Assembly (NCBI RefSeq): GCF_004801285.1
Contig: NZ_SSNY01000012.1
Span: 62,001-126,000, forward strand
DNA length: 64,000 nucleotides
Reading direction: 5' to 3'
Source: Ollibium composti
GTDB taxonomy: Bacteria; Pseudomonadota; Alphaproteobacteria; Rhizobiales; Rhizobiaceae
Shown: positions 8,348 to 51,442 of the stretch, piece after piece
Numbering within the stretch: the first letter of the stretch is position 1
Layout of the letters: each line of letters starts with the position of its first letter
Program-made: the position numbers and the translations under genes
The notes under the pieces: model-generated
Told to the model about the DNA's origin: nothing
Seen by the model: only the letters and a program-made list of their open reading frames with translations
Databases searched by the model: none

Positions 8348-9940
8348 ATGTTGACCAGACTTGGCCTGATAGCGGCGCTGGCGCTCGGAACGGCAACCGC
8401 CGCATGGGCGCAGGACGCCACCCCGAAGGACGGCGGGAAATTCGTCTTCGTGGCGCCCTACGGCAACGCCATCACCTCGCTCGATATTACCGCGACGCCG
8501 CATACGCAGGACGAGATCGTCGGCAAGGCGATCAACCGCTCGCTCTACAAATGGAACCCCGAAAGCGGCAAGCCGGAGCTCGACCTGGCGGAATCCGTCA
8601 CCGTGTCGGACGACGGCAAGACCTATACCTACAAGCTCAAGGACGCGACCTTCCACAACGGCGACAAGCTCGATGCCGATGACGTGATCTGGTCCTACAA
8701 CCGGCTGGCCGACCCCAAGAAGGCGCTGCCGGGCGCCGAGCAGATGCTGCAGATCGCCGGCGTCGCCGAATACCAGGCAGGCAAGGCCGACCACATTTCA
8801 GGCCTGAAGAAGATCGACGATCGAACCGTCGAGATCACCGTCATCAACCTGGCCAATCCCGGCTGGAACCTGATGTCGAACTATGCGCCGATCTACTCCA
8901 AGGATTATCCGGAAGACCAGCTCGCCTCCAAGCCGAACGGCCTCGGGCCGTTCAAACTGGCCAACTACGTTCCCGGCTCGAAGGTCGAGCTGGTGAAGTT
9001 CGACAACTTTTTCGAGAAGGGCAAGCCGCATCTCGACAAGCTCGACATCATGCTGATGGGCGAGGCACCGGCCCGCGACGTCGCCTTCCGCAATGGCGAG
9101 ATCGACGCCAACGTGCTGGGCCCGGTGCAGTACGAAGCCTATACCCAGGACGCGGCGCTGAAGGATCACATCCTCGAAGTGGCCGAGGTCTATACGCGCA
9201 ACATCGGCTTCAATCCGAAGATCGAGGCGTTCAAGGACAAGCGCGTCCGCCAGGCGATCAACTACGCCATCAACAAGGACCTGATCGTCGAGAAGCTCCT
9301 GAAGAACAAGGCCTATCCGGCGGTCTCCTGGCTGCCGATCTCCTCGCCGGCCTTCGACAAGAATGCCAAGCCCTACGCCTACGACCCCGAGAAGGCCAAG
9401 GAACTGCTCAAGGAAGCCGGCTTCGAGACCGGCCTGAAGTTCTCGGTCACCGCGACCTCGAACGAAAGCTGGGGCCTGCCGATCGTCGAGGCGATCATCC
9501 CGATGCTCGCCAAGGTCGGCGTCACGGTGACGACCGACCCGGTGGAGAACTCGGTCCTGTCCGACAAGATCCTGTCCGACAATTTCGAGAGCTTCATCTG
9601 GTCCAACTCGTCGGGTCCCGACCCGCTGAAATACCTGACCTGTTTCTATTCCAAGACGCCGCAGAACGCCTGCAACTACGTCAAGTTCAACAACGCCGAC
9701 TTCGACAAGCTGATCGACCAGGCGGGCAACGAGACGGATCCGGCCAAGCAGAACGACATCCTGCGGCAGGCCAACAATCTGCTGGAAGAAGAGGCGCCGG
9801 TCTGGTTCTTCAACTACAACAAGGCTGTGATGGCCTACCAGCCCTGGGTGCACGGGCTGAAGCCGAACGCCATGGAACTGGCGATCCAGGACTACGAGGA
9901 TATCTGGATCGACGACAGCGCGCCCGCCTCGCGCAAGTAG
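8348..9940 (+). CDS. ABC transporter substrate-binding protein, family 5 (dipeptide/opine type)
   Basis: A 530-residue periplasmic binding protein. A Sec signal peptide covers residues 1 to about 22 (cleavage near AWA-QD). The mature protein has the SBP family 5 hallmarks: an N-terminal GGKFVFV strand, WNPESGKPELDLAESVTVSDDGKTYTYKLK-type core segments, and DADDVIWSY. It captures peptides or peptide-like opines and delivers them to the permeases encoded next. The start follows a strong AAGGGAGGA ribosome-binding site, consistent with high expression. It is second in the operon led by the amidohydrolase. Confidence 0.94.
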   Translation: MLTRLGLIAALALGTATAAWAQDATPKDGGKFVFVAPYGNAITSLDITATPHTQDEIVGKAINRSLYKWNPESGKPELDLAESVTVSDDGKTYTYKLKDATFHNGDKLDADDVIWSYNRLADPKKALPGAEQMLQIAGVAEYQAGKADHISGLKKIDDRTVEITVINLANPGWNLMSNYAPIYSKDYPEDQLASKPNGLGPFKLANYVPGSKVELVKFDNFFEKGKPHLDKLDIMLMGEAPARDVAFRNGEIDANVLGPVQYEAYTQDAALKDHILEVAEVYTRNIGFNPKIEAFKDKRVRQAINYAINKDLIVEKLLKNKAYPAVSWLPISSPAFDKNAKPYAYDPEKAKELLKEAGFETGLKFSVTATSNESWGLPIVEAIIPMLAKVGVTVTTDPVENSVLSDKILSDNFESFIWSNSSGPDPLKYLTCFYSKTPQNACNYVKFNNADFDKLIDQAGNETDPAKQNDILRQANNLLEEEAPVWFFNYNKAVMAYQPWVHGLKPNAMELAIQDYEDIWIDDSAPASRK

Positions 9941-27665: not shown

Positions 27666-28691
27666 TCAGATTTCGGGAATGTTTTCCTTGAAGACGATCT
27701 GCAACCTCGGCGGGTGGTAGTCGCCGGCCTGTCCGCGTACGGCGTTCGACAGCACGTTCAGCGCCTCGCGCGCCTCGACGCGCGGGTTCTGGTCGATGAC
27801 GGCGTCCATCGTGCCGTCGAGCAGCAGCGACTTGGTGCCCTCCGTCACCTCATGGCCGACGAACACCACCGAGCGCTCACGGCCGCGTTCCTTCAGTGCG
27901 CGCGCGATGCCCGGATTGCCCGCACCGATGTTGTAGATGCCGGCGAGGTCGGGATGACGGTCGAGCAGGGCCGCCGCCTCCGAATAGGCGCGCTCGCGAT
28001 CGTCGAGCATCTCGCGCAGTTCGACGATCTCGATATGCGAATGCTCCTCGGCCAGCAGGTGGCGAAAGCCCATCTCGCGCTCTTCATGGCCACGATAGGA
28101 CAGCGAGCCGGCAAACAGCGCCACCTTGCCGGCCCGGCCGGTGCCCATGAAGCGGCTCATGACATAGCCGGCGAGCCGCCCAGCTGCCCGGTTGTCGATG
28201 CCGATATAGGCGACGCGCGGCACATGCAGGATGTCGGAGGCGATCGTCACCACCTTGACGTCGCTCGCCGCCAGCGAGCGCAGCGCCTCACGTACCGTCG
28301 GATGGTCGAGCGCGATGACGCCGACGCCGCGCGCGGCGGGCGGCAGTTCGGACAGGCTTTTGGCCAGCCGGTCGGGGCTGAAGCCTTCTATCGCCGTGAT
28401 GTGAACGTCGAGGTCGGGACGCGCCTGCGCCTGCGCCTCGATTTGCCGATGCAGCATCTTGATGAAGGTGTTCGTGCCTTCCGGCAGGATGAAATCGAGG
28501 CGCACGACCTCCGTCTCGTGCGCGGCGGCAAGGCGCCCGCCCGCATCGGCGATGTAGCCGAGACGCCGGGCGGCCTCCATCACGATCTCGCGGGTGCGCG
28601 GGCGCACGCCCGAACGGTTGTTCAGCACGCGGTCGGCCGTCGCCGGCGAAACCCCGGCTTCGCGGGCGACGTCAGTGAGCGTGAAGCGCAC
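27666..28691 (-). CDS. LacI-family transcriptional regulator
   Basis: A 341-residue LacI-type regulator. It has the helix-turn-helix and hinge (LTDVAREAGVSPATADRVLN, then VRPRTREIVMEAARRLGY) in the first 50 residues, and a ribose-binding-protein-like effector domain. The GTG at 28691 puts the HTH at the very N-terminus as the family requires. An ATG at 28919 would add 76 residues of unrelated cysteine- and proline-rich sequence across the promoter region. It is divergent from the MocA-like dehydrogenase/ABC operon and probably represses it in the absence of a sugar or inositol. Confidence 0.88.
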   Translation of the reverse strand: MRFTLTDVAREAGVSPATADRVLNNRSGVRPRTREIVMEAARRLGYIADAGGRLAAAHETEVVRLDFILPEGTNTFIKMLHRQIEAQAQARPDLDVHITAIEGFSPDRLAKSLSELPPAARGVGVIALDHPTVREALRSLAASDVKVVTIASDILHVPRVAYIGIDNRAAGRLAGYVMSRFMGTGRAGKVALFAGSLSYRGHEEREMGFRHLLAEEHSHIEIVELREMLDDRERAYSEAAALLDRHPDLAGIYNIGAGNPGIARALKERGRERSVVFVGHEVTEGTKSLLLDGTMDAVIDQNPRVEAREALNVLSNAVRGQAGDYHPPRLQIVFKENIPEI

Positions 28692-28724: not shown

Positions 28725-29094
28725 CGGCGCGGCATGGGACGGAAAGCCGGAACCCGAATTGATTCCGGCCGGCGATAATGATGCGGGCGCCGGCCCGGCA
28801 CAAGTCGCGGTGCACTCGCCGGCACATGCCGGTGAGCGCAGGTCCTGCCGATTTTGCCCCGGAAACGAGCCTGTACAGCATTGGTTGACCCCCCCGGCGT
28901 CGAACTCCATTTTCCGCACGCCGAAATGATGGTTTTTGATAAGTATTGATGTTGACTATGATGGTTTGCCTCGTCAATATCCCTCTTGCGGATTGCTGAC
29001 AGCGTCCGAAGGGGGAGGAGCCCCGAGCATCGAAATTTCGGTCCGGCCGGTGCGCGATGTGCGCTGCCGTGTCGAGCGAGGGGACTTGACGAGC

Positions 29095-30186
29095 GTGGCA
29101 GACGCCAGGGGATTCGAGCCGGACGCCAAAATCCGCGCCAGGGACTACCGGATCGGCTGCATCGGCGCCGGCATGATCATGGCCGAGTGCCATCTGGCCG
29201 CCTACCATGAAGCCGGCTTTCCGGTGGCGGCTATCGCCTCACGCACGAAGGCAAATGCCGAAAAGATTGCCGCCCGCTGGGGCATTCCAAAGGTGCACGA
29301 CACGCCGCTGGCGCTGATCGAGGACCCTGAGGTCGAGATCGTCGATCTCGCCTTTCCGCCGGACCAGCAGCCGCAACTGATCCGCCACGCGCTGAAGCAG
29401 AAGCACGTCAAGGCGATCCTCGCCCAGAAGCCGCTGGCGCTGTCGCTGGAGGAGGCGATCCGGCTGCGCGACGAGGCGGCGGCCTCCGGCAAGATCCTGT
29501 CGGTCAACCAGAACATGCGCTACGACCAGTCGATGCGCGTGCTCAAGCAGATCATGGATTCGGGCGCGCTGGGCGACATCGTCTTCGCGGAAATCGACAT
29601 GCACGCCATTCCGCACTGGCAGGGTTTTCTGCGCGACTACGACCGGCTGACGCTGTCCAACATGGCCGTGCATCATCTCGACGTGCTGCGCTTCTTGTTC
29701 GGCGACCCAGACGAGATCACCACGCTGACCCGCAAGGACCCGCGCACCACCTTCCCGCATTCGGACGGCATCACCGTCTCGACATTGCGCTTTCCGTCCG
29801 GCGTGCTGGCGGTGTCGCTGGAGGACGTGTGGTCCGGACCGCGCGCGGAGGGATACAAGGACGACCAGCATATCGCCTGGCGCGTCGACGGCACCGAGGG
29901 CGTCGCCAAGGGCACGATCGGCTGGCCGACGGGAGTTGCCTCCACGCTGACCTACGCCTCGACGAAAACGACCGGCGGCGAATGGGTGACGCCGACCTGG
30001 AAAACGATGTGGTTCCCGCATGCCTTCATCGGCGTCATGGAACAGCTTCAGCATGCCGTGAAGACCGGAACGCCGCCGGCGCTGTCGATTGTCGACAACG
30101 TGCGCACCATGGCGCTGGTCGAGGCCGGCTACCGCTCGATCGAGGAGAGACGAACCGTCAGGCTGTCGGAGGTTTTCTCCGGCTGA
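29095..30186 (+). CDS. Gfo/Idh/MocA-family oxidoreductase
   Basis: A 363-residue NAD(P)-dependent dehydrogenase. The Rossmann motif GCIGAGMIMAECH lies near residue 21. The catalytic-lysine block reads LAQKPLALS, so glutamine replaces the usual glutamate of EKP while the lysine is kept. A LSNMAVHHLDVLRFLFGD histidine segment follows. It likely oxidises a hydroxyl of an inositol or sugar. The start is uncertain: GTG 29095 is chosen over TTG 29086 (spacing too short) and an ATG at 28936 (long non-homologous leader). It leads the operon running through the first ribose-type transporter. Confidence 0.87.
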   Translation: MADARGFEPDAKIRARDYRIGCIGAGMIMAECHLAAYHEAGFPVAAIASRTKANAEKIAARWGIPKVHDTPLALIEDPEVEIVDLAFPPDQQPQLIRHALKQKHVKAILAQKPLALSLEEAIRLRDEAAASGKILSVNQNMRYDQSMRVLKQIMDSGALGDIVFAEIDMHAIPHWQGFLRDYDRLTLSNMAVHHLDVLRFLFGDPDEITTLTRKDPRTTFPHSDGITVSTLRFPSGVLAVSLEDVWSGPRAEGYKDDQHIAWRVDGTEGVAKGTIGWPTGVASTLTYASTKTTGGEWVTPTWKTMWFPHAFIGVMEQLQHAVKTGTPPALSIVDNVRTMALVEAGYRSIEERRTVRLSEVFSG

Positions 30187-30251
30187 ACCGCCATTCGCGG
30201 CCGGCCGGTCGTCAAGCCTACTGGAGTCCGTATAGGGAGAAGTTTTCTATC

Positions 30252-31166
30252 ATGATGCAAGCTGGCATTTTCACGGGCTACTTCCCGTATGGCCTCGAGG
30301 AGACCGCGAAGAAGATTCGCGCGCTCGACTTCAACACCGTGCAGCTCGACCTGCATTTCAAGGACATCGACCTGTCCGCCGGCCAGATCACCAGGGACAA
30401 GGCGAAGAAGGTGCGCGACGTCTTTCGCGACCACAACCTGCCGATCTGCTGCGTTTCCGGCTACACCAACATCATCCACCCGGACAAGGACGAGCGGGCG
30501 AAGCGCGTCGGCTACCTCAAGGAGATCATCCGCCACGCGCGCGACTTCGGCTCGGCCTATGTGATCTCGGAGACCGGCACCTTCAACACCGAGTCCGACT
30601 GGGTGCATCATCCCAAGAACAAGACCGAGGAAGGTTTCGAGGAATGCCGCAAGGTGATCGCCGAGCTGGCCCAGCTCGCCTACGACCACGGCGCGGTGTT
30701 CTGCCTGGAAACCTACGTCAACAACGTCGTCGGTTCGGTCGAGGAGACGGTGAAGATGTTCGCCCAGGTCGACCATCCCGGCCTCGGCCTCTTGATGGAC
30801 CCGACGAACTATTTCGAGAGCCACAACATCGACCGCATGGGCACGATCCTGCATCAGGTGTTCGACACCTTGCAGGACAAGATCAAGATCGCCCACGCCA
30901 AGGACGTGAAGCGCTCGGGCACCGACAAGTCTGAGAAGCACGCCGACATCGGCGACGCCGACGCGATGGAGAGCCACACCTTCCGTGGCGTCGGCGAGAT
31001 CGAGCTGCCGGCGCCCGGCCTCGGCGAGCTGGACTACGACCTCTATCTGCAATTGCTGGCGCGCAAGCACTCCAACATCCCGGTCATCATCGAGCATCTG
31101 GCGGAGGATGACATTCCGCGCGCCAAGAAATTCCTGGACGGCAAGTTCCGCGCCAACGGCCTTTGA
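30252..31166 (+). CDS. Sugar phosphate isomerase/epimerase-like TIM barrel (xylose-isomerase-like)
   Basis: A 304-residue (beta/alpha)8 protein. Conserved acidic and histidine metal ligands appear at strand ends: FCLETYVNN (Glu), GLLMDPTNY (Asp), IAHAKDV (His, Asp) and VIIEHLAED (Glu, His). This is the IolE/MocC/tagatose-epimerase-like arrangement binding Mn or Mg. Two consecutive ATG codons at 30252 and 30255 are alternative starts behind AGGGAGA. It lies between a MocA-like dehydrogenase and an ABC transporter, so it likely isomerises or dehydrates a keto-inositol or ketose made by that dehydrogenase. Confidence 0.88.
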   Translation: MMQAGIFTGYFPYGLEETAKKIRALDFNTVQLDLHFKDIDLSAGQITRDKAKKVRDVFRDHNLPICCVSGYTNIIHPDKDERAKRVGYLKEIIRHARDFGSAYVISETGTFNTESDWVHHPKNKTEEGFEECRKVIAELAQLAYDHGAVFCLETYVNNVVGSVEETVKMFAQVDHPGLGLLMDPTNYFESHNIDRMGTILHQVFDTLQDKIKIAHAKDVKRSGTDKSEKHADIGDADAMESHTFRGVGEIELPAPGLGELDYDLYLQLLARKHSNIPVIIEHLAEDDIPRAKKFLDGKFRANGL

Positions 31167-31225: not shown

Positions 31226-32158
31226 ATGTTGAGTAAACTGAGACTGCTCATCTACGGCATGGTCCTTGCGATGGTCCTGCCGCTCGCGGCGCAGGCCAAG
31301 ACGTTCTACTGGATTTCGCACGGCAGCCCGGCCGACCCGGTCTGGACCTACTTCCTGCAAGGCGCCGAGATGTGGGCGAAATCGACCGGCCAGACGGTCA
31401 AGACCTCGTTCCACAACGGCGACGTCCCGGCCCAGCAGGAAGCGCTGCGCGCGGCCATCGCCGCCAAGGCCGACGGTATCGTCACCACCAGCCCCGATCC
31501 GGGTAGCCTGGTCGACATCGTCAAGGAAGCGAAGCAGGCAGGCATCCCGCTCATCAACTTCAACACGCCCGACCCGTCGGCGCACTTCCAGGCCTATGTC
31601 GGCACCGATCTGGTCGTCGTCGGCAAGGGCTGGGCGCAGTATCTCGTCGACCATAACTTCGTGAAGAAGGGCGATTTCGTCTGGATGCCCGTCGAGGTCC
31701 CCGGCGCCAGCTACGGCGTCGAGGAAACGAAGGGCATCAAGGAGGTCTTCGATCCGCTCGGCATAACCTATGAGGTCACCGAGACGACGCTCGACCAGGC
31801 CGAGATCATCACCCGCATGAGCGACTACCTCAACGCCAACAAGGCCAAGATCAAGGCCATCATCGGCCTCGGCGATCTGGCCACCGGCTCGATCAAGCGC
31901 GTGTTCGACCAGGTCGGCGTCAAGGCGGGCGAAATCCCGGTCGTCGGCTGGGGCAATTCGCTCGACACCACCAGCGAGGTCACCGAGGGCTACGTCAACG
32001 CCGCCCAGTGGCAGGATCCGCAGGCGACCAGCTATCTGGCGCTCACGCTTGCCATGATGGCCACCGACGGCGTGCCGCCAGCCTTCAACATCACCACCGG
32101 CGCGCTCTACGAGAAGGACACGGCGGACGTCTACGCCAAGGTCATGTCGGCCAAATAA
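31226..32158 (+). CDS. Sugar ABC transporter substrate-binding protein (ribose/fructose type)
   Basis: A 310-residue periplasmic binding protein. The signal peptide is residues 1 to about 24 (cleavage near AQA-KT), followed by the type I fold of the RbsB/FrcB class with blocks ADGIVTTSPDPGSLVDIVKEA and GIPLINFNTPDP. It begins after a strong GGGAGG ribosome-binding site and is followed by a stem-loop, both consistent with abundant expression. The ligand is likely a pentose, ketose or cyclitol. Confidence 0.92.
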   Translation: MLSKLRLLIYGMVLAMVLPLAAQAKTFYWISHGSPADPVWTYFLQGAEMWAKSTGQTVKTSFHNGDVPAQQEALRAAIAAKADGIVTTSPDPGSLVDIVKEAKQAGIPLINFNTPDPSAHFQAYVGTDLVVVGKGWAQYLVDHNFVKKGDFVWMPVEVPGASYGVEETKGIKEVFDPLGITYEVTETTLDQAEIITRMSDYLNANKAKIKAIIGLGDLATGSIKRVFDQVGVKAGEIPVVGWGNSLDTTSEVTEGYVNAAQWQDPQATSYLALTLAMMATDGVPPAFNITTGALYEKDTADVYAKVMSAK

Positions 32159-32261: not shown

Positions 32262-33230
32262 ATGCAACGTTTGTTCTCCAGACCCGAATTCGGGCCGCTC
32301 GTCCTGCTCATCGTCGAACTGGTCGTCTTCCAGTCGATCAATTCGCAGTTCCTGTCGGTGCTCAACATCTCCAACACGCTGGCCTTCTCGGTCGAGCTCG
32401 GCCTTGTCGCACTGGGCATGACGCTCTTGATGACGTCGGGCGAATTCGACCTGTCGGTCGGCTCGGTCTTCGGCCTGTCGCCGGTGATCATGTGGTCGCT
32501 GTTCAACAGCGGTGCGTTGCCGCTGGAGGCCGCCTTCGTCGCCGGCCTGCTGATCGCGGCGCTGATCGGCTTCGTCAACGGCTGGTTCGTCATCCGCCTG
32601 AAAATCCCGTCCTTCCTGGTGACGCTCGGCATGCTTCTGATCGCGCGTGGCACGGCGCTGTTCATCACCGACGGCTTCCCGCAGCGCACCTGGGACGCCA
32701 GCGGGCAATGGCTGGCGGAAGTCCTCGTCGGCGACTTCTATGTCGGGCCGTTCCGCATCTACATGTCGCTGTTCTGGTTCATCCTCGCCGCCGTCATTCT
32801 CGGCTACGTGCTGACGCAGACGAAGTTCGGCAACTGGGTCCAGGCCTCCGGCGGCAATCCCGGCGCTGCGCAGGCGCGCGGCGTCAATGTCGGCCGCACC
32901 AAGATCATCCTGTTCGTGCTGTCGGCGGTGCTCTCGGCCTTCGCCGGCATCATCAGCTCGATCCGCACGTCGGCCGCCAACCCCAACAGCGGCACCGGCT
33001 ACGAGCTCGAAGTCATCGCTATGGTGGTGATCGGCGGCACGGCGCTGACCGGCGGGCGCGGCACCATCATCGGCACGGTGATCGGCATCTTCATCCTGCG
33101 CATCATGCGCAACGGCATCGTCATGGTCGGCGTGCCGGGCCTAGCCTACAACATCTTCATCGGCGCGATCATCCTCGGCATGATGGCGCTGCATTCGGGC
33201 CTCGAGCGCCGGCACCAGTCAGGGAATTAG
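32262..33230 (+). CDS. Sugar ABC transporter permease (RbsC/FrcC type)
   Basis: A 322-residue membrane protein with about eight to ten helices and the family landmarks LMTSGEFDLSVGSVFGLS, IPSFLVTLGMLLIARG, ASGGNPGAAQARGVNVGRTK and VIAMVVIGGTALTGGRGT. Residues in the last block contact the ATPase. It forms a homodimeric channel. The ATPase gene follows after four bases. Confidence 0.93.
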   Translation: MQRLFSRPEFGPLVLLIVELVVFQSINSQFLSVLNISNTLAFSVELGLVALGMTLLMTSGEFDLSVGSVFGLSPVIMWSLFNSGALPLEAAFVAGLLIAALIGFVNGWFVIRLKIPSFLVTLGMLLIARGTALFITDGFPQRTWDASGQWLAEVLVGDFYVGPFRIYMSLFWFILAAVILGYVLTQTKFGNWVQASGGNPGAAQARGVNVGRTKIILFVLSAVLSAFAGIISSIRTSAANPNSGTGYELEVIAMVVIGGTALTGGRGTIIGTVIGIFILRIMRNGIVMVGVPGLAYNIFIGAIILGMMALHSGLERRHQSGN

Positions 33231-33234
33231 GACA

Positions 33235-34011
33235 ATGGCCGAAGAACTCGTCCTGATGGACAATGTCAGCAAGTATTACGGCCGCGTCCGCGCCCTCGAC
33301 GGCGTCACCTTCCGTGTCTTCAAGAACGAGATCGTCGGCCTGCTCGGCGACAACGGCGCCGGCAAATCGACGCTCATCAAGGTGTTGTCGGGGGCCGTGC
33401 GCTCCACCGGCGGCACCATCTCGATAAAGGGCAAGAAGGTCGACATGCGCAGCACGGCCGACGCCATCGCCAACGGCATCGAGACGATCTATCAGGATTC
33501 GGCGCTGGTCACGCAGCTTTCCATTGCCCGCAACCTGTTCCTCGGCCGCGAGCCGATCAAGGGGCCGGGCTTCTTCAACAGGATGGACCAGGCCAAGATG
33601 GAGGAAGTGGCGACCGCGCTGCTGAAACGCGTCGGCATCTCCAAGAACATCCCGGTGACGACGCCGATCGGCTCGCTGTCGGGCGGCGAGCGGCAGGCCG
33701 TCGCCATTGCACGCGCCATGCACTTCCACAGCGACCTTATCATCCTCGACGAACCGACGAACAATCTGGGCGTGGCGGAGACGCAAGGCGTGCTGCGCTT
33801 CGTGCGCAACGCGCGCGACACCGGCCATTCCTGCATCTTCATCGCCCACAACATTCATCACGTCTTCGAGGTGGTCGACCGCATCGTGGTCATGCGGCAG
33901 GGCAAGGTGGTGGCCGACGACATCGATCCGAAGAAGACCACCGTTCGGCATGTCGAGGAGGTGATCACCGGCATGTCGGAAAGCGAACTCAGGAGCGCGG
34001 TGGCGCATTAG
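33235..34011 (+). CDS. Sugar ABC transporter ATPase, single-domain (FrcA type)
   Basis: A 258-residue ATPase with one nucleotide-binding domain, unlike the doubled RbsA form of the second transporter here. Walker A is GDNGAGKST, the Q-loop is TIYQDSALVTQLS, the signature is LSGGERQAVAIARA and Walker B is LIILDEPTNNLG. H-loop FIAHNIHHV follows. Single-domain members such as rhizobial FrcA import fructose, mannose and ribose, so a ketose or related polyol is plausible. Confidence 0.92.
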   Translation: MAEELVLMDNVSKYYGRVRALDGVTFRVFKNEIVGLLGDNGAGKSTLIKVLSGAVRSTGGTISIKGKKVDMRSTADAIANGIETIYQDSALVTQLSIARNLFLGREPIKGPGFFNRMDQAKMEEVATALLKRVGISKNIPVTTPIGSLSGGERQAVAIARAMHFHSDLIILDEPTNNLGVAETQGVLRFVRNARDTGHSCIFIAHNIHHVFEVVDRIVVMRQGKVVADDIDPKKTTVRHVEEVITGMSESELRSAVAH

Positions 34012-34056: not shown

Positions 34057-35235
34057 ATGGTGGACCTCTACGGACAGACGTTCTCGCGCCGGCAACTCGC
34101 CGAGCGCACCGGCTCGCTCTCGCAGTTCGCCGGCGTGCGGTTGATGACGCTCGGCGACGGGGTGGAGCGCGGCATCCGCATGCTGGAGTTCCGCACCGGC
34201 ACCGGCCTGCGCTTCACCGCGCTGGTCGACCGCGCGCTCGACATCGCCGACTGCGACTACAAGGGCCGGGCGATCGGCTGGCATTCGCCGAGCGGCTTCC
34301 GCCATCCCGGCCTGCACGACGTCGAGGGCGAGCAGGGGCTTGGCTGGGCGCGCTCCTTTTCCGGCCTGCTCCTGACCTGCGGCCTCGACCACACACTTGG
34401 TCCTGCCGAAGTGTCGGCCGAGACTTACAACTATCCCGGCAAGGCGACGGTGCGACACGGCCTGCATGGCCGCGTCAGCGCCATTCCCGCGCGGCTGACC
34501 GGCCATGGCGAGCGCTGGGAAGGGGATCGCTGCGTGCTTTGGGCGGAAGGTATCGTGCAGCAGGCGGCCGTCTTCGGCGAAGACCTGCACCTGATGCGGC
34601 GCATCGAGGCCGATGTCGGCTCCAACGAGATCCGCCTGTCGGACAGGGTGGTCAACCACGGCTTCCTGAAAACGCCGCACATGTTCTTCTACCACGTCAA
34701 CATCGGCCATCCGGTGCTGGACGAGGGCTCGCGCTATCTGGCGCCGATCCGCGAGGCGGTGTGGGCCGCGCATGCCGATAGCTATCGTCGGCAAGGCGTC
34801 GGCTACCGCACCTTGCCGGCGCCGCGCCATGATTTCCGCGAGCAGGTGTGGGAGCACGAGACGGCGGCGGACGGGGCTGGCCTCGTGCCGGTGGCGCTGG
34901 TCAACGATCGCATCGGCCTCGGCTTCGAGGTCGAGACGCGCAAGGACCAGTTTCCTTGCCTCTACGAGTGGCAGAATTTCCAGGCTGGCTCCTACGCGCT
35001 TGGCATCGAGCCTTCGACGCACCATGTCCTGGGAGACGCCGCCGCGCGCGAACGCGGCGAAATGATCTGGCTGGAGCACGGCGACAGCCGCGCCTACGAC
35101 ACGACTTTCCGCGTGCTCGACGGCGCGGAGGAAATCGCGGCGGCGGAGCGCCGCATCCGCGCGATCACCGAACAGCCCGACGAAGACTACCCGGCCCCGT
35201 CCGGCAGGTTCACGACCCTTGGAGGCCAGCGATGA
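34057..35235 (+). CDS. DUF4432-family protein (aldose-1-epimerase-like fold)
   Basis: A 392-residue protein of the DUF4432 family, predicted to share the galactose mutarotase beta-sandwich. Landmarks are GVERGIRMLEFRTGTGLRFTALVDRALDIADCDYKGRAIGWHSP in the first third, LLTCGLDHTLGP, TVRHGLHGRVSAIPA, and FFYHVNIGHPVLDEG. The family lacks a settled function, but the fold and placement after a sugar transporter suggest anomeric equilibration or binding of a sugar derivative. Its stop overlaps the start of the MocD-like gene, so the two are translationally coupled. Confidence 0.85.
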   Translation: MVDLYGQTFSRRQLAERTGSLSQFAGVRLMTLGDGVERGIRMLEFRTGTGLRFTALVDRALDIADCDYKGRAIGWHSPSGFRHPGLHDVEGEQGLGWARSFSGLLLTCGLDHTLGPAEVSAETYNYPGKATVRHGLHGRVSAIPARLTGHGERWEGDRCVLWAEGIVQQAAVFGEDLHLMRRIEADVGSNEIRLSDRVVNHGFLKTPHMFFYHVNIGHPVLDEGSRYLAPIREAVWAAHADSYRRQGVGYRTLPAPRHDFREQVWEHETAADGAGLVPVALVNDRIGLGFEVETRKDQFPCLYEWQNFQAGSYALGIEPSTHHVLGDAAARERGEMIWLEHGDSRAYDTTFRVLDGAEEIAAAERRIRAITEQPDEDYPAPSGRFTTLGGQR

Positions 35236-36332
35236 CGACGGCGACGTTCCAGAAGACGAAACGCGACTACAGCCTCGTCGGCGAAAGCACCAGACGCGCC
35301 ATAGAGACGGGGCTGGCCTCGGCCGAATGGTATCACACCGACGTGCCCCGCAAGGTGATGAAGGAACTGATGCAGCGCTCCGACGGACCGGCGATCCGCG
35401 ACACGGTCCTGTGGATCGCGCTGATCCTCGGCTCGGCCGCCGGGGCGGTCTTCTTCTGGGGCACCTGGTGGTGCGTGCCGTTCTTCCTCGTCTACGGCGT
35501 GCTCTACGGCTCCTCCAGCGATTCGCGCTGGCACGAATGCGGCCACGGCACCGCCTTCCGCACGCGTTGGATGAACGACGTCGTCTACCAGATCGCCTCC
35601 TTCATGCTGATGCGCAACCCGGTGCAATGGCGCTGGAGCCATGCCCGCCACCACACCGACACCACCATCGTCGGCCGCGATGCCGAGATCGCCGTGATGC
35701 GCCCGCCGGACCTTCTGAAGGCGGCGTTGATGTTCACCGGCCTGCTCGATCTGCGCTATTCGCTGCCGACGCTTTTCCGCCAGGCCTTCGTCGGGCTGAA
35801 CGCCGAGGAAAAGAGCTACGTGCCGGAGATGGAGTTCCGCAAGGCTATCGTCGCGGCCCGCTGGCATGTGGCGATCTACATCGCAACCGTCGCGGCGGCG
35901 CTCGCCCTGCGCTCGGTCCTGCCGCTGATGCTGATCGGCGGCCCGCGCCTCTACGGCTCCTGGCACATGATCCTGACGGGCCTGTTGCAGCATGTCGGGC
36001 TGGCCGACAACGTCACCGACCATCGGCTGAACACGCGCACCGTCTACATGAACCCGGTCAGCCGCTGGATCTACTGGAATATGAACTACCACGTCGAGCA
36101 CCACATGTTCCCGATGGTGCCTTATTACGCGCTGCCGAAGCTGCATGAATTGATCAAGCACGACCTGCCGCAGCCCAACCCGTCCATGTGGCATGCCTAT
36201 CGGGAAGTGTGGCCGGTGCTTTTGCGACAGCTGAAATACGAGGACTATTACCTCAAGCGCGAGCTGCCGCCGACGGCCAAGCCCTATCGGGACGAGTTCC
36301 ACAACATGACGATCCCGGCCGCCGCCGAATAG
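35232..36332 (+). CDS. mocD: MocD-type membrane di-iron oxygenase (fatty-acid-desaturase superfamily), first copy
   Basis: A 366-residue integral membrane enzyme. Three histidine boxes hold the di-iron centre: H101-E-C-G-H105, H137-A-R-H140-H141, and H287-V-E-H290-H291. Hydrophobic helices lie near residues 58-95 and 170-200. By eye it is very similar over its whole length to the copy at 49129-50244, which sits with MocE and MocF genes. Rhizobial MocD is linked to oxidative removal of the O-methyl group of a rhizopine. This copy has no ferredoxin or reductase beside it and may borrow those at 47.5-49 kb. It overlaps the DUF4432 gene and is followed by a PanB-like gene. A lipid desaturase role is less likely in this setting. 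Confidence 0.85.
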   Translation: MTTATFQKTKRDYSLVGESTRRAIETGLASAEWYHTDVPRKVMKELMQRSDGPAIRDTVLWIALILGSAAGAVFFWGTWWCVPFFLVYGVLYGSSSDSRWHECGHGTAFRTRWMNDVVYQIASFMLMRNPVQWRWSHARHHTDTTIVGRDAEIAVMRPPDLLKAALMFTGLLDLRYSLPTLFRQAFVGLNAEEKSYVPEMEFRKAIVAARWHVAIYIATVAAALALRSVLPLMLIGGPRLYGSWHMILTGLLQHVGLADNVTDHRLNTRTVYMNPVSRWIYWNMNYHVEHHMFPMVPYYALPKLHELIKHDLPQPNPSMWHAYREVWPVLLRQLKYEDYYLKRELPPTAKPYRDEFHNMTIPAAAE

Positions 36333-36363: not shown

Positions 36364-37161
36364 ATGAGCCGGAAGAGACCGACCATCGCCGATTTGCGTG
36401 CCATCAAGGGCAAGCGGCAGCTCACCATGCTGCGCGTCACCACGATGGAGGAAGCCGAGGCGGCCGAGAAGGCCGGCATCGACATCGTGTCGATCACGCC
36501 TGAACTCATCCTCAATCCCGCTTATCGCGAGGTCGCGCCCAGCCTGTTTTCCATGCCCGGCGAGAATTTTTACGAGATCGGCACGGCCGACGATTTCGTG
36601 CGCTGGTCGTTCAAAATGGTGAAGGCCGGCGCCGACGCCGTCTATTGCAGCGCCAGCTACGCCACCATCAAGCGCATGGCCGACGAGGCGATCCCGGTGA
36701 TCGGCCATGTCGGGCTGATCCCGTCGCGGCGGACCTGGACCGGCGGCTTCAGGGCGGTCGGCAAGACCGCCGACAGCGCCATGGAAATTGTCGAGGCGGT
36801 CAGGCAGCTCGAAGCCGCAGGCGCCTTCGGGGCGGAAATCGAGGTGGTTCCCGTCGAGGTCGCCGAGGCGATCTCCAAGCGCACGTCGCTGTTCCTTCTT
36901 TCCATGGGGGCGGGGACCGGCTGCGACGCGCAATACCTGTTCGCCGAGGATATCCTCGGCGCCAATCGCGGCCACATGCCGCGCCATTCCAAGGTCTACC
37001 GCAACTTCGCCGCAGAATACGACCGGCTGCAGCAGGAGCGCATCGCTGCTTTCAGGGAATATGTCGCCGACGTCGAGAGCTGGGCCTATCCGGAAGAAAA
37101 GCACATCGTGCGCATGCCGCCGGACGAGCTGAAAGCCTTCCTCGACCGGCTCGGTTCCTGA
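36364..37161 (+). CDS. PanB-like protein (ketopantoate hydroxymethyltransferase superfamily), diverged active site
   Basis: A 265-residue protein whose second half matches PanB closely: PVIGHVGLIPSRRTWTGGFR (residues 111-130), AAGAFGAEIEVVPVEVAEAIS (151-171), LSMGAGTGCDAQYLFAEDILG (179-199), and VYRNFAAEY. The probable catalytic glutamate is kept at E160. The first half differs at key points: the metal-binding GDS segment reads ITPELI, the second metal Asp segment (VADLPF) reads LFSMPG, and the AVKLEGG lysine block reads AVYCSAS. True PanB adds a hydroxymethyl group from methylene-tetrahydrofolate to a 2-oxo acid. Here the reaction or metal use must differ. It directly follows the MocD-like oxygenase, so a role in handling the released C1 unit or cleaving a C-C bond is possible. 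Confidence 0.8.
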   Translation: MSRKRPTIADLRAIKGKRQLTMLRVTTMEEAEAAEKAGIDIVSITPELILNPAYREVAPSLFSMPGENFYEIGTADDFVRWSFKMVKAGADAVYCSASYATIKRMADEAIPVIGHVGLIPSRRTWTGGFRAVGKTADSAMEIVEAVRQLEAAGAFGAEIEVVPVEVAEAISKRTSLFLLSMGAGTGCDAQYLFAEDILGANRGHMPRHSKVYRNFAAEYDRLQQERIAAFREYVADVESWAYPEEKHIVRMPPDELKAFLDRLGS

Positions 37162-47450: not shown

Positions 47451-48680
47451 TCAACCGGCGAGCAGCCTCTTCAGCTTGACCTCGGGCGAGGCGAGGGCGG
47501 CGGGGGCGAGCCGCGCGCCCTTGGCGATCAGCATTTCGGCCAGCCGGATATCGCGCGCCACGGCGGTGTCGGGGCCGATGCCGCTCGCCGCGACGAGGCG
47601 TCCGTCGCCGGCGAGATGGAACAGGATGAAGGCGTTTTCGCCAATGTCGCGCCGGATACTGCTGTTCGCCTCGTCGGAAAGCCCTGCGATCTGCATGGTC
47701 AGCTCGTACTGATCCGACCAGAACCATGGCACGGCGGAAACCGGCTCCTCGTGGCCGAGCATGTTCCTGGCGGCAAGCGCGCCTTGCTCCTGTGCGTTGC
47801 GCCAGGCCTCCAGTCGCACACGCCGCCCACCATAGACGGCGAGAGGAAAGGAGCAGCAATCGCCGGCGGCGAAGATCGCCGGATCGGCGGTGTGCAGCAT
47901 GGCGTCGACAGCGATGCCGTTCTCGATCCTCAGCCCCGCCGCCTCGGCCAGCCTGGTGTTGGGCTCCGCGCCGATGCCGATCACGGCGAGATCGGCGTCG
48001 ATCACGCGGCCGTCAGCCAAGGTCAGCTGCACCTTTTGGCCGTCGTCGTCGATCGCCGCGATACCGGCGCCGCATAGAATCTTCGCGCCGTGCGCCTCAT
48101 GCGCCGCATGGACGACAGCCGCGATCTCGGCCGGCACGCCGCGCATGAGGATACGCGGCTGCGCCTCGATAACGGCGACGTCGGCGCCCAGTCGCCGTGC
48201 CGAGGCGGCCAATTCCAGCCCGATGAAGCCGCCGCCGACAACGGCGATGCGGCTTTGCGGCCTGAGGTGTCGGCGGATCGCCAGCGCGTCGTCGAACGTC
48301 CTGAGATAGACGCAGCGCCTGCCGAGCCCCGGCATCGGCAGCTTGCGCGGCGTGGAGCCGGTCGCGAACAGAAGTTTCTCGTAGGCAAGCTCGCTGCCAT
48401 CGGCCAGTTTCACCAGCTTGGCTGCCCTGTCCACCGACGCGACCGTAACCGGGCGCAGATGGGTGATGGCTTTATCCGCGAGGTCGGCCTCGCCGGCGAT
48501 CGCCTTGACCGCCGGGGCATCCGCCACCATCGCGTCCTTCGACAGCGGCGGGCGTTCGTAGGGCAGGTGAGGCTCGTCGCCGATCAGCGTCACCGGCCCG
48601 GCATAGCCGAGGTCGCGCAGCGCCAGCGCCGCGCGCCCGCCGCACTCTCCGGCGCCGATGATGACCATCCCCCCGTTCAT
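47451..48680 (-). CDS. mocF: MocF-like ferredoxin reductase (FAD/NADH)
   Basis: A 409-residue pyridine-nucleotide-disulfide oxidoreductase-like flavoprotein of the rhodocoxin/putidaredoxin reductase type. The FAD motif GAGECG is at residues 9-14, YERPPLSK at 41-48, the NADH-binding IAVVGGGFIGLELA is mid-protein, and IFAAGDCC marks the second FAD contact. It passes electrons from NADH to the Rieske ferredoxin encoded just upstream. Start 48680 puts the Rossmann motif at the N-terminus. A repeat-like palindrome fills the gap to the ferredoxin gene. Order on the strand is oxygenase, ferredoxin, reductase, as in rhizobial mocDEF. Confidence 0.88.
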   Translation of the reverse strand: MNGGMVIIGAGECGGRAALALRDLGYAGPVTLIGDEPHLPYERPPLSKDAMVADAPAVKAIAGEADLADKAITHLRPVTVASVDRAAKLVKLADGSELAYEKLLFATGSTPRKLPMPGLGRRCVYLRTFDDALAIRRHLRPQSRIAVVGGGFIGLELAASARRLGADVAVIEAQPRILMRGVPAEIAAVVHAAHEAHGAKILCGAGIAAIDDDGQKVQLTLADGRVIDADLAVIGIGAEPNTRLAEAAGLRIENGIAVDAMLHTADPAIFAAGDCCSFPLAVYGGRRVRLEAWRNAQEQGALAARNMLGHEEPVSAVPWFWSDQYELTMQIAGLSDEANSSIRRDIGENAFILFHLAGDGRLVAASGIGPDTAVARDIRLAEMLIAKGARLAPAALASPEVKLKRLLAG

Positions 48681-48696
48681 GGATCTATCCTGTCTC

Positions 48697-48740
48697 GCAA
48701 TTCCGGACGGAAAACCGGTTCCCACTTTTCCTGGAATTGC
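48697..48740. repeat. RIME-like intergenic palindromic repeat
   Basis: GCAATTCC at 48697-48704 and GGAATTGC at 48733-48740 enclose a core with ACGGAAAACCGG and CACTTTTCC. The sequence resembles, from memory, an intergenic mosaic element repeated many times in rhizobial genomes. It occupies the gap between the ferredoxin and reductase genes. A hairpin here may lower downstream expression. Confidence 0.6.
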
Positions 48741-48742
48741 TC

Positions 48743-49057
48743 CTATCCGACCTGGATCAGCACCTTGCCGCCCTCGACCTTCACCGGATAGGTCTTCAGG
48801 TTGACGCAGACGGGTGCGCCCTTGGCCTCGCCGGTCTTGTAGTTGAAGCGGCCGTTGTGCTTCGGGCATTCGATGATGTCGTCTATCACCAGCCCGCCGG
48901 AGAGATGGACCTGTTCATGCGTGCACAGGCCGTCGGTGGCGAAATATTCGTCGTCCGGCGACCGGTAGATGGCGAAGGTATGTCCCGCGTGGTCGAAGCG
49001 GATGACGTCCTCCTCGTCGACGTCGTCCGCGCCGCAGGCCTCGATCCATTCACTCAC
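48743..49057 (-). CDS. mocE: MocE-like Rieske [2Fe-2S] ferredoxin
   Basis: A 104-residue soluble Rieske protein. Cluster ligands are C45-T-H47 and C64-P-K-H67, in GLCTHEQVHL and ECPKHNGRFNY, followed by the GxPV segment GAPVCVNLKTYPV. It shuttles single electrons from the reductase to the membrane oxygenase. GTG 49057 is the start: AGGGAGACGAGCAA precedes it and the length is right. The gene lies 71 bases after the MocD-like gene on the same strand. Confidence 0.9.
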   Translation of the reverse strand: MSEWIEACGADDVDEEDVIRFDHAGHTFAIYRSPDDEYFATDGLCTHEQVHLSGGLVIDDIIECPKHNGRFNYKTGEAKGAPVCVNLKTYPVKVEGGKVLIQVG

Positions 49058-49128
49058 TTGCTCGTCTCCCTGGGTGGTGTCTCTGGGTTGTAACGGAGGC
49101 GCCGCCTTTATTATCGGTCCTGAAGAAC

Positions 49129-50244
49129 CTATTCCGCCGCCGCAGGCATGCGGTCGTCCTGGTGAAGCTCCTCGCGATAGGGCTTCGCGGTCGGCGGCAG
49201 CTCGCGCCGCAGGTAGTAGTCCTCGTAGCGAAGCTGGCGCAGGAAGGCCGGGATCATCTCCCTGTAGCCGGCCCATATGGAAGGGCAGGGGGCCGGCAAG
49301 TCGTGCTTGATAAGGTCGTGCAGCTTCGGCAGCGCGTGATAGGGCACCATCGGGAACATATGGTGCTCCACATGGTAGTTCATGTTGAGGTAGATGAAGC
49401 GGCTGACCGGGTTCATGTAGACCGTGCGGCAGTTCAGCCGGTGATCGGTGACGTTGTCGGCCAGCCCGCCGTGTTGCAGCAGGCCGGTCATCACCATGTG
49501 CCAGGCACCGTAGAGGCGTGGCAGCCCGATCAGCATCAGCGGCAGCCATGAGTGCAGGGCGAGCGCGAGGGTTGCGGTCGCGATGTAGATGGCCATCCAG
49601 ACGCGGGCGACGCGGATCGCCTTCGGCCGCTCGGATTCGGGGATGAAGGTGGCTTCCTCGGCGCCGATGACGCCGGCGGCGTTGCGCACCATGTCGACCG
49701 TCGCCTGCCAGGCGTCGAGGACGCCGACGAAATTCAGCACCAGCCGCACGAGGTCGGGCGGGCGCATGACGGCGATCTCGGGGTCGCGGCCGACGATGAT
49801 GGTGTCGGTGTGGTGGCGGGTGTGGCTCCAGCGCCAGGTCACCGGGTTGCGCATGATCATGAAGCAGGCGACCTGGTAGACGGCGTCGTTCATCCACTGC
49901 GTGCGGAAGGCGGTGCCGTGGCCGCATTCATGCCAGCGCGAGTCCGACGAGGAACCATAGAGCACGCCGTAGACGAAGAAGAACGGTACGCACCACCACG
50001 TGCCCCAGAACCAGATGCCGCCGGCGGCGCTCACGATGAAGGCGGCGATCCAGATGACGGTGTCGCGAATGGCCGGGCCGTCGGAGCGCTTCATCAGCTC
50101 CTTCATCTGCTTGCGCGGCACGTCGGTGTGATACCACTCGGCCGCCGCCAAGCCGTTCTCGACGGCAAGCCGGGAGTCGCGGCCGATCAGGCTGTAGTCG
50201 CGCCTGGTTGGTCGCACGGAGGCATCGGTGACGGCTATGCCCAT
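49129..50244 (-). CDS. mocD: MocD-type membrane di-iron oxygenase, second copy
   Basis: A 371-residue membrane enzyme with histidine boxes H105-E-C-G-H109, H141-T-R-H144-H145 and H291-V-E-H294-H295, plus the shared blocks SDGPAIRDT, WFWGTWWCVPFF and NVTDHRLN. Clustering with a Rieske ferredoxin and reductase marks it as an oxygenase, matching rhizopine MocD, rather than an acyl desaturase. Start 50244 is preferred: AAGGGAG lies six bases upstream, while ATG 50250 leaves no spacing. It is divergent from a LacI regulator across a 166-base gap containing an ATTCAT dyad. Confidence 0.88.
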   Translation of the reverse strand: MGIAVTDASVRPTRRDYSLIGRDSRLAVENGLAAAEWYHTDVPRKQMKELMKRSDGPAIRDTVIWIAAFIVSAAGGIWFWGTWWCVPFFFVYGVLYGSSSDSRWHECGHGTAFRTQWMNDAVYQVACFMIMRNPVTWRWSHTRHHTDTIIVGRDPEIAVMRPPDLVRLVLNFVGVLDAWQATVDMVRNAAGVIGAEEATFIPESERPKAIRVARVWMAIYIATATLALALHSWLPLMLIGLPRLYGAWHMVMTGLLQHGGLADNVTDHRLNCRTVYMNPVSRFIYLNMNYHVEHHMFPMVPYHALPKLHDLIKHDLPAPCPSIWAGYREMIPAFLRQLRYEDYYLRRELPPTAKPYREELHQDDRMPAAAE

Positions 50245-50345
50245 CTTCATCTCCCTTGCAGTGCCCTGCTGGAGCCATATGGCCGGGCCGCATGAAATTG
50301 CTTCCCTTAAGGTAGCAAGCGGCGTCAAATTGCTCAATATCCATC

Positions 50346-50363
50346 ATTCATATTGCAATGAAT
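50346..50363. promoter_or_regulatory. Candidate LacI operator between mocDEF and its divergent regulator
   Basis: ATTCAT-ATTGCA-ATGAAT is a perfect 6-6-6 inverted repeat, centred about 57 bases from the LacI start and 110 from the MocD start, in an AT-rich island. Adjacent CTATCATTATCTATCATAA holds a direct repeat of CTATCAT at 50365 and 50374 that may extend the site or form the promoter. Confidence 0.58.
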
Positions 50364-50410
50364 TCTATCATTATCTATCATAATCACGACAAACCGGCAG
50401 ACCCGTTCCT

Positions 50411-51442
50411 ATGGTGAAGCGTCCGACCATTGCCGATCTTGCCCGCGCTGCCGGCGTCAGCGTCGCCACTGTCGATCGCGTCCTCAACGGTCGGCTGCCG
50501 GTGCGCGAAGACACCACCCGGCGCGTCTACGAGGCGGCGACGGAAATCGGCTTCCACGCCGCCGACCTGATCGGCCGGCGCCTGCACCGGGACCTGCCGG
50601 AACTGCGGCTGGGCTTTCTGCTGCTCAGGCCGGACGATCCGTTCTACCGGGCCTTCGCTACCGAACTGGAGGAGGCCGTTTCGCGCTCGCAGCGCTTTCG
50701 CGGCACGGCGGCGATCGACTTCACGGAAACGCTTTCGCTGGACGAGATCGTCGAGCGGCTGCGCCGACTGGCGGCAAAGTCGCGCGCGGTCGCCGTCGTC
50801 AGCCCCGACCATCCGATCCTGTCGAGAGCGGTGGAGGAACTGAAGCGGCGGGGCGTCCCCGTCTTCGCCCTGTTGTCGGACTTCGCCGCGGGCGTGCGGG
50901 AAGGCTATGTCGGCGTCGACAACCTCAAGGTCGGGCGCACCGCCGCGTGGATGATCGCCACGGGCGCGAAGCGGCCGGGCAAGGTGGCGCTGTTCGTCGG
51001 CAGCCACCGCTTCCATGGCCACGAATTGCGCGAGATCGGCTTCCGCGCCTTCTTCCGCGAGCATGCGCCGGACTTCACCGTCATGGAGACGCTGGTCAAT
51101 CAGGAATCGTACCAGCTCACCCACGACGCGCTGGTCCAGCTTTTGCGCCAGGATGGCGACCTCGCCGGCTGCTACATCGCCGGCGGCGGCGCGGAGGGCG
51201 GGATCTCGGCGCTGCGCGAGGTGCGGCCGCCGCGCAAGCCGGTGATGGTCTGCAACGAAATCACCGCCGACCGGCGCGTCGCCCTTGCCGAAGGGCTTTT
51301 GACCATGGTGATCGACACGCCGCTTCGGCCGCTCTGCGCGGAACTGGTGGACCTGATGGCGCACGCGCTGGAAAACGGCGCGACGGGCGCGCAGGGACAG
51401 ACCTTCGTGCCGTTCGGCGTCTATCTGCCCGAGAGTGTCTGA
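50411..51442 (+). CDS. LacI-family transcriptional regulator, divergent from mocDEF
   Basis: A 343-residue LacI-type regulator. Its N-terminus PTIADLARAAGVSVATVDRVLNGRLPVRE holds the helix-turn-helix and the start of the hinge, and the effector domain resembles RbsB-type binding proteins. It closely resembles in layout the other LacI regulator of the window (VATVDRVLN against PATADRVLN). Its placement makes it the likely controller of the oxygenase-ferredoxin-reductase set, responding to an imported sugar or cyclitol. Confidence 0.92.
   Translation: MVKRPTIADLARAAGVSVATVDRVLNGRLPVREDTTRRVYEAATEIGFHAADLIGRRLHRDLPELRLGFLLLRPDDPFYRAFATELEEAVSRSQRFRGTAAIDFTETLSLDEIVERLRRLAAKSRAVAVVSPDHPILSRAVEELKRRGVPVFALLSDFAAGVREGYVGVDNLKVGRTAAWMIATGAKRPGKVALFVGSHRFHGHELREIGFRAFFREHAPDFTVMETLVNQESYQLTHDALVQLLRQDGDLAGCYIAGGGAEGGISALREVRPPRKPVMVCNEITADRRVALAEGLLTMVIDTPLRPLCAELVDLMAHALENGATGAQGQTFVPFGVYLPESV

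Follow-up and report, generated by a model that had tools for sequence, protein, structure and literature searches.

A PanB-fold protein family encoded beside MocD-like oxygenases and its possible part in one-carbon capture

The MocDEF system carries out O-demethylation in rhizopine catabolism, and formaldehyde would be the product that demethylating oxygenases have in common. The other close system is PanB, in which we take D45, D84 and E114 to be the residues of the metal site and K112 to be the active-site lysine, and in which H136 and E181 presumably have roles as well; we know of no structure of PanB with bound tetrahydrofolate (THF).

According to the excerpted text of PMC7770189, the metal helps the formation of the enol in PanB. 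The passages of He et al. (PMC7073904) that treat the spontaneous condensation of formaldehyde with THF describe it as too slow in vivo and unable to support growth. In these passages an uncharacterised condensation enzyme could not be fully excluded, and PanB was weighed as a promiscuous catalyst; deletion of panB in E. coli left condensation-dependent growth unchanged, which suggests that ordinary PanB is without visible condensation activity. The same authors suggested that a variant of Fae for THF might have evolved. In rhizobia, LacI regulators of the FixV type and epimerases of the Msi119 type adjoin mocDEF, as the excerpts of PMC3538637 report. Among the open-licence PMC papers listed, none ties PanB-like proteins to MocD, demethylation or the THF-dependent activation of formaldehyde.

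The window gene and its operon

The window, that is, the whole stretch of 64,000 nucleotides of Ollibium composti DNA that was analysed and to which positions refer, contains a gene that we call PanBL, as we do its product and relatives. Its open reading frame is a real gene encoding 265 amino acids from an ATG start, and the alignments to most close relatives begin at residue 1. PanBL closes a run of co-directional genes. The features are:

27666..28691, minus strand: LacI-type regulator, divergent from the operon; longer reading frame to 28919
29095..30186, plus strand: Gfo/Idh/MocA dehydrogenase (Pfam/NCBIfam); a longer start at 28936 is possible
30249..31166, plus strand: xylose-isomerase-like TIM barrel (Pfam)
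31226..32158, plus strand: periplasmic binding protein; the best NCBIfam match, a rhizopine-catabolism SBP, is below cut-off (68.8 versus 420)
32262..33230, plus strand: permease of a sugar-type ABC transporter, BPD_transp_2 (Pfam/NCBIfam)
33235..34011, plus strand: ATPase of a sugar-type ABC transporter; best NCBIfam matches below cut-offs
34057..35235, plus strand: DUF4432 protein (Pfam), its last 4 bases overlapping the beginning of the MocD-like gene
35232..36332, plus strand: MocD-like membrane oxygenase with the His boxes HECGH, HARHH and HVEHH (FA_desaturase PF00487, 127 bits)
36364..37161, plus strand: PanBL, PanB-fold, no GDS loop or lysine, H115 and E160 kept (Pfam, alignment, model)
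47451..48680, minus strand: ferredoxin reductase, MocF-like by position and domains (PF07992, PF14759)
48749..49000, minus strand: Rieske ferredoxin, gene ends not fixed (tblastn, 73% identity to the Rieske ferredoxin of another PanBL locus)
49129..50250, minus strand: second MocD-like oxygenase with 72% identity to the first, no PanBL beside it

The name MocD is taken over from the original prediction; our assignment rests on the FA_desaturase family and the three His boxes found in the window protein (PF00487). That prediction had PanBL starting 31 bases after the MocD-like gene, as the coordinates bear out, with the stop of the latter at 36332 and the start of PanBL at 36364. Its description of the two as fused by position is overstated, since the genes are adjacent and not fused. 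It had also seen the PanB motifs in the C-terminal half, in agreement with Pfam, which matches PanB (PF02548) over residues 76-245 only (135.8 bits against a cut-off of 28.7), and with phmmer, which likewise places the similarity to PanB in the later part of the protein. The NCBIfam models for PanB remain below cut-off (NF001452 with 122.1 against 272, TIGR00222 with 97.1 against 207.55). Members of the family are carried in public records under the PanB name, 3-methyl-2-oxobutanoate hydroxymethyltransferase.

Among the 80 close loci, genes at least 45% identical to those of the window operon recur for the xylose-isomerase-like TIM barrel (61 loci), the Gfo/Idh/MocA dehydrogenase (60) and the DUF4432 protein (45), and a LacI-type regulator lies upstream in a few as well (L002, L004, L006, L063). 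The window LacI gene (27666-28691) and TIM-barrel gene (30249-31166) recall, by description, the gene types of PMC3538637 and may be their orthologues. The stretch 47451-51442 forms a second MocD-like cluster of reductase, Rieske ferredoxin, MocD-like oxygenase and divergent LacI gene, with no PanBL. Its ferredoxin and reductase lie 10-12 kb from PanBL; the Rieske ferredoxin is a possible electron donor in trans for the MocD-like oxygenase beside PanBL, and both MocD-like oxygenases of the window may share one electron chain.

Fold, tree and residues

The structure model of the window protein, built from 46 relatives, has a mean pLDDT of 90.9, with residues 121-126 uncertain. Among solved structures, those of PanB match the model best (Foldseek E 5e-18 and 1e-17); VIA-align gives Z 24.4 and rmsd 2.8 over 212 aligned residues for 3vav_H, and Z 23.0 and rmsd 2.8 over 210 for 1m3u_A. 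Methylisocitrate lyase and PEP mutase come next at a Z of about 15, and for 9hra_F, of the PEP mutase/isocitrate lyase superfamily, the values are Z 15.1 and rmsd 3.1 with 191 aligned. The modelled protein is nearer to PanB (Z 23-24) than to the PEP mutase/isocitrate lyase superfamily (Z 14-15). In a midpoint-rooted tree of 60 rows, 55 PanBL sequences stand apart with full support from five PanB-type rows. PanBL is a PanB-fold protein in a clade of its own, and is not PanB. Within the family, L121, L125, L131 and L214 form a clade that has no nearby oxygenase by the queries used and, in several members, an N-terminal extension; its function may differ.

The residue comparison rests on an alignment of 142 PanBL members and nine PanB-type comparators, to which L130_11, L122_1 and L123_4 were assigned; sequences of at most 200 amino acids were left out. 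Compared with E. coli PanB, the GDS segment of the window protein is replaced by T45-P46-E47, after which about 19 residues are missing, and D45 corresponds to P46, D84 to G66, K112 to Y94 and E114 to S96, while H136 and E181 are kept as H115 and E160. The GDS motif is present in none of the 142 PanBL and in all nine comparators, and the same holds for K112; an aspartate stands in the D45 column in 3/142 PanBL. D84 (1/142 PanBL versus 3/9 comparators) and E114 (0/142 versus 3/9) are less telling, because six of the nine comparators also lack both and have S or C and Q instead, so that only the GDS loop with D45 and K112 set PanBL apart from all nine. The original claim that the GDS segment, the second metal aspartate segment and the lysine segment are replaced therefore extends to the family, with the reservation that the loss of D84 and E114 is shared by these six comparators. 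E160, singled out as kept, is found in 142/142 PanBL; the equivalents of H136 and E181 are present in all 151 aligned sequences.

Several other positions are conserved in PanBL: Y94 and C95 (129/142 each), W125 (138/142), D188, H208 and R226 (141/142 each), the invariant D196, and E158, which is found in 142/142 PanBL and also in 6/9 comparators. A new metal site formed by E158, H115, D188 and H208 is possible. To judge from the sequences, metal ligands replaced in place, with which normal PanB chemistry might be kept, were not seen in the 142-member alignment. A further PanB-type subgroup (L104, L105, L107, L110, L111 and L130) has the GDS loop and the lysine, together with Q at the position of E114 and S or C at that of D84; some of its members may not be true PanB either.

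Oxygenases and folate genes around PanBL

We compared gene neighbourhoods in a close set of 100 loci, consisting of the best 80 of 135 relatives and 20 divergent stretches. A MocD-like gene lies within 4.5 kb of PanBL in 87 of these loci, and a Rieske ferredoxin lies in the same range in 73; one of the 13 loci without MocD, L130, encodes a PanB-type protein with a GDS loop. The commonest gene orders among the 100 are MocD-ferredoxin-PanBL (43) and MocD-ferredoxin-reductase-PanBL (16).

A less selected, order-wide sample of 397 genomes, in which the same genomes were searched for PanBL and MocD, yielded 60 PanBL matches in 37 genomes and 80 MocD matches in 63 genomes. MocD lies within 4 kb of 40/60 PanBL matches, and a MocD-like, FA_hydroxylase-type or Rieske oxygenase lies within 8 kb of 53/60. 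The 20 matches without MocD within 4 kb include 13 with an oxygenase within 8 kb, namely MocD in L244 and L251, a Rieske oxygenase in L197, and a protein of the FA_hydroxylase cluster in L183, L184, L185, L186, L188, L192, L200, L202, L203 and L246; these 13 further loci were assigned by BLAST clusters, with FA_hydroxylase confirmed by Pfam in L119, L200 and L203 only. As for the remaining seven, L245 has a ferredoxin at the contig end, G070 lies at a contig end, L199, L201, L214 and L247 have no oxygenase or ferredoxin by the MocD, FA_hydroxylase, ferredoxin and reductase queries, and L248 (G419:C156) is PanB-type (296 bits to the whole PanB model) and not PanBL, and is kept in the denominator of 60. 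A Rieske oxygenase was looked for in L197 only, so that "none" elsewhere means none by those four queries. In L194 and L212, PanBL, ferredoxin and MocD were all found by tblastn.

The association also holds at the level of genomes: MocD occurs in 35 of the 37 genomes with PanBL versus 28 of the 360 without (Fisher p 2e-30, kinship ignored). Among the 55 PanBL rows at 80% non-redundancy, with the window row set by hand as oxygenase-linked, an oxygenase lies within 8 kb in 39, and an oxygenase or ferredoxin in 42; the 13 rows with neither are L113 (contig end), L120, L121, L125, L126 (two), L129, L131, L199, L201, L208 (short stretch), L211 and L214. L211 is counted here as none, and the longer stretch L250 has MocD and ferredoxin 3.6 kb away. 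In the reverse direction, 40/80 MocD matches have no PanBL within 4 kb. In a phylum-wide sample, PanBL was found in 19/398 genomes at E 1e-45, all of the same class or nearer. There is thus good support for the proposal that PanBL has an activity other than that of PanB and linked to a MocD-like oxygenase, and the homologues are not scattered without MocD-like neighbours.

The oxygenases beside PanBL belong to three families (FA_desaturase, FA_hydroxylase and Ring_hydroxyl_A), and the transporters vary as well, from sugar ABC systems to a betaine-type OpuAC binding protein (L118) and a TRAP transporter, the last together with an IlvD-like dehydratase (L128). L197 has a GbcA-like oxygenase beside PanBL (123 bits versus a cut-off of 670), and GH4 is also among the skeleton enzymes that change around PanBL. 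In L196 a DddP-like M24 protein (8395-9690; 298 bits versus a cut-off of 600) stands beside MocD, Rieske ferredoxin and PanBL; DddP being a DMSP lyase, use of a methylated sulfonium compound is possible in this locus. With oxygenase type and transporter both varying around PanBL, what these loci share is probably the C1 unit that is released.

A Pfam tally of 72 neighbours, drawn from 88 clusters with most already-scanned ones omitted and a few proteins of L191, L208 and L112 added, is led by transporters and regulators. No C1 family is among the 25 of 105 families listed; the purU of L053 was in the set, among the families outside those 25. PhyH (PF05721), perhaps another oxygenase type, occurs in 2 of the 72. 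Near MocD genes without PanBL, no general substitute formaldehyde enzyme was found in 20 of the 40 loci, with ten neighbours scanned: PurU (L228), an acyl-CoA dehydrogenase and a CoA-transferase (L221), a Gfo/Idh enzyme, a carbonic anhydrase, a lactate dehydrogenase, a reductase fragment, a LysR regulator, an FMN reductase and one protein without a match.

L114, L116 and L117 carry MocD-PanBL pairs in AT-rich genomes of 1.4 Mb; two genes follow the pair in L114 and L116, in L114 encoding DUF1800 and DUF1501. One small AT-rich genome has tandem PanBL (L126:9231-10921), four copies in all, and one Mesorhizobium locus (L070) has two PanBL matches. The MocD-like gene at G688:C18:37095-38120 has an in-frame TAG.

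The gene purU, encoding formyl-THF deformylase, lies within 3.5 kb of PanBL and on the same strand in 5/143 loci (L134, L055, L059, L053 and L115). On plasmid pMHb of Mesorhizobium huakuii (L134) the order is desaturase-Rieske-reductase-PanBL-purU-folD. In L055, L059 and L053 purU is directly downstream of PanBL; in L115 it is further down, and the operon runs on as purU-iolC-iolD-iolB, all four above NCBIfam cut-offs, so that this operon pairs the inositol-ring route with the methyl-carbon route. L055 and L059 count as one event because their DNA is 93.5% identical. The purU genes split into two lineages that share 50-56% identity. L191 holds a sixth purU, 7 kb away from PanBL and next to genes for a Gfo/Idh enzyme and a Rieske ferredoxin. 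The gene folD adjoins only in L134, and the end of L214 holds a distant copy; a short folD-like stretch (L053:9767-9940; 41% over 58 amino acids) directly follows PanBL-purU in L053.

For comparison, 163 loci were searched with 58 E. coli proteins taken from two stretches, one of them picked for holding purU. The other 57 proteins reach at most two loci within 3.5 kb on the strand of PanBL (oppF two; oppD, cytR and trpB one each; metF none). Counted over the 163 loci irrespective of distance, the values are 32 for oppF, 8 for oppD, 7 for purU and 7 for cytR, and oppF, oppD and cytR are multi-copy families. In L228, purU follows MocD and a reductase without PanBL, a gene order that supports a C1 fate of the MocD product. 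This locus and the 40/80 MocD matches without PanBL within 4 kb show that the C1 route can do without PanBL.

Possible role and known systems

The original prediction offered two chemistries, the capture of a C1 unit released by demethylation and an aldolase or lyase reaction on a keto-inositol. The former is favoured, because purU and folD share operons with PanBL and because oxygenase type and transporter change around it; what speaks against the latter is that the carbon skeletons appear to vary. We consider it quite possible, at a little below even chances, that PanBL passes the formaldehyde of demethylation to THF without the metal-bound keto-acid step of PanB. From the gene order and the residues we infer the substrate, the release of formaldehyde by the oxygenase, the binding of THF by PanBL and the reaction as follows. 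The window operon would import a methylated sugar or inositol, whose O-methyl group would be oxidised to formaldehyde by the MocD-like oxygenase, with electrons from a MocE-type ferredoxin and its reductase. PanBL, as a metal-independent relative of PanB, would bind THF and speed the joining of formaldehyde to give 5,10-methylene-THF, which could pass to FolD and PurU, and so to formate, or to biosynthesis.

This role can be pictured if PanB is seen as combining two half-reactions, the transfer of the C1 unit from methylene-THF and the metal-aided enolisation of the keto acid. PanBL would be without the keto-acid half, the GDS loop and the lysine, which would bind and enolise the keto acid, being gone. 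The first half-reaction, reversed, would be the formation of methylene-THF from formaldehyde and THF, and the kept H115 and E160, the GG...G loop and the C-terminal D-LG...PR region could serve the hydroxymethyl and THF side. More tentatively, and with more doubt than confidence in the full claim, PanBL may be a dedicated, metal-free, THF-dependent formaldehyde-activating enzyme, the THF counterpart of Fae, derived from PanB minus its keto-acid half and recovering O- and N-methyl carbon across Alphaproteobacteria. A role confined to rhizopine was rejected as too narrow, since PanBL also occurs with other transporters and oxygenases.

The association of genes would fit equally well if PanBL removed formaldehyde by way of an acceptor other than THF, be it a 2-oxo acid or keto sugar in an aldol-type addition, or a thiol. 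A 2-oxo acid is the C1 acceptor of PanB itself, and for the M. tuberculosis enzyme a title cited in the excerpts of PMC7073904 names a THF-independent reaction with alpha-keto acids. However, the keto-acid site has lost D45 and K112 throughout the family, and the C1 genes beside PanBL, purU and folD, encode THF enzymes; this explanation therefore appears unlikely to us. We think it rather improbable that PanBL acts on the carbon skeleton, as a retro-aldolase, lyase or isomerase of the demethylated keto-inositol or keto-sugar. The fold resembles that of a lyase superfamily, Gfo/Idh and xylose-isomerase-like genes are present in many of the operons, and iolC-iolD-iolB in one; however, skeleton enzymes and transporters change (TRAP with IlvD-like, OpuAC, GbcA-like, GH4), whereas the link to an oxygenase is constant. 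A non-catalytic PanBL, serving as a sensor of formaldehyde or substrate or as an assembly factor of the oxygenase, would explain the lost metal-site residues and the frequent pairing with an oxygenase, but H115, E158, E160 and D196 are invariant and D188 and H208 kept in 141/142, as expected of an active site, while some PanBL have no nearby oxygenase and those that do are found with three oxygenase families, which makes this role improbable indeed.

In the window genome (G000, 99.97% complete) PanBL is the sole PF02548 match, and panC was not found as a PF02569 match at E 0.001, a search that was positive in 9/14 control genomes; with no panC and no canonical panB match, the genome is likely that of a pantothenate auxotroph. 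The PanBL on plasmid p42e of R. etli CFN42 shares 66% identity with the window protein and comes after a desaturase, a MocE-family ferredoxin and an FAD oxidoreductase. By our own identification it is RHE_PE00443, the "second panB" of PMC3082293: it lies on the same plasmid, its length is 271 amino acids versus 270 in print, and its identity to the p42f PanB is 36% over 148 amino acids versus 36% over 140 in print. The passages of PMC3082293 on this gene report that an R. etli panB mutant is still auxotrophic despite RHE_PE00443, that its constitutive expression does not complement the mutant (the authors' data not shown), and that a metal-binding domain is undetected in it. That PanBL is a diverged but working PanB, as the PF02548 match above cut-off and the PanB name in public records might suggest, is extremely improbable, and a pantothenate role was rejected, given that its own genome has no panC match, that the NCBIfam PanB cut-offs are missed and that, in those passages of PMC3082293, the R. 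etli relative does not sustain the panB mutant and does not complement it.

Returning to the transfer of formaldehyde to THF, PanBL is a concrete and conserved candidate for the enzyme-catalysed step that the excerpts of PMC7073904 leave open. If this reading is true, PanBL would be a THF counterpart of Fae and would account for the recovery of methyl carbon by rhizobia and other Alphaproteobacteria, the sources being methylated inositols, sugars and perhaps osmolytes; it would also supply a missing part for synthetic methylotrophy and correct the name 3-methyl-2-oxobutanoate hydroxymethyltransferase on many public records.

Compared with the described systems, PanBL is closest to PanB (PF02548, EC 2.1.2.11), which it resembles in fold, at 25-28% identity, in the equivalents of H136 and E181, and in keeping the GG...G loop, GxG, D-LG and the C-terminal P. 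It differs from PanB in having no GDS loop, lysine or E114, in having Y94-C95, W125, H208 and R226, and in its gene company, and a PanBL relative does not replace PanB. From RHE_PE00443 there is no difference in kind, the two being 66% identical with similar desaturase, ferredoxin and oxidoreductase neighbours; the passages of PMC3082293 on this gene give neither oxygenase neighbours nor a function. With MocDEF the PanBL loci share the desaturase-like gene, the MocE-family ferredoxin (TIGR02377 above cut-off in L134 and L135) and the FAD reductase; in the excerpts of PMC10107442 and PMC3538637 PanBL is not named as part of that system, and in the window the ferredoxin and reductase sit 10-12 kb off, beside the second MocD-like gene. 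To the barrel fold of the PEP mutase/isocitrate lyase superfamily the model aligns at Z 14-15, well below its values for PanB. The likeness to Fae lies in the proposed role only, the condensation of a pterin with formaldehyde; PanBL belongs to another protein family (Pfam PF02548 only), and the pterin of Fae is H4MPT.
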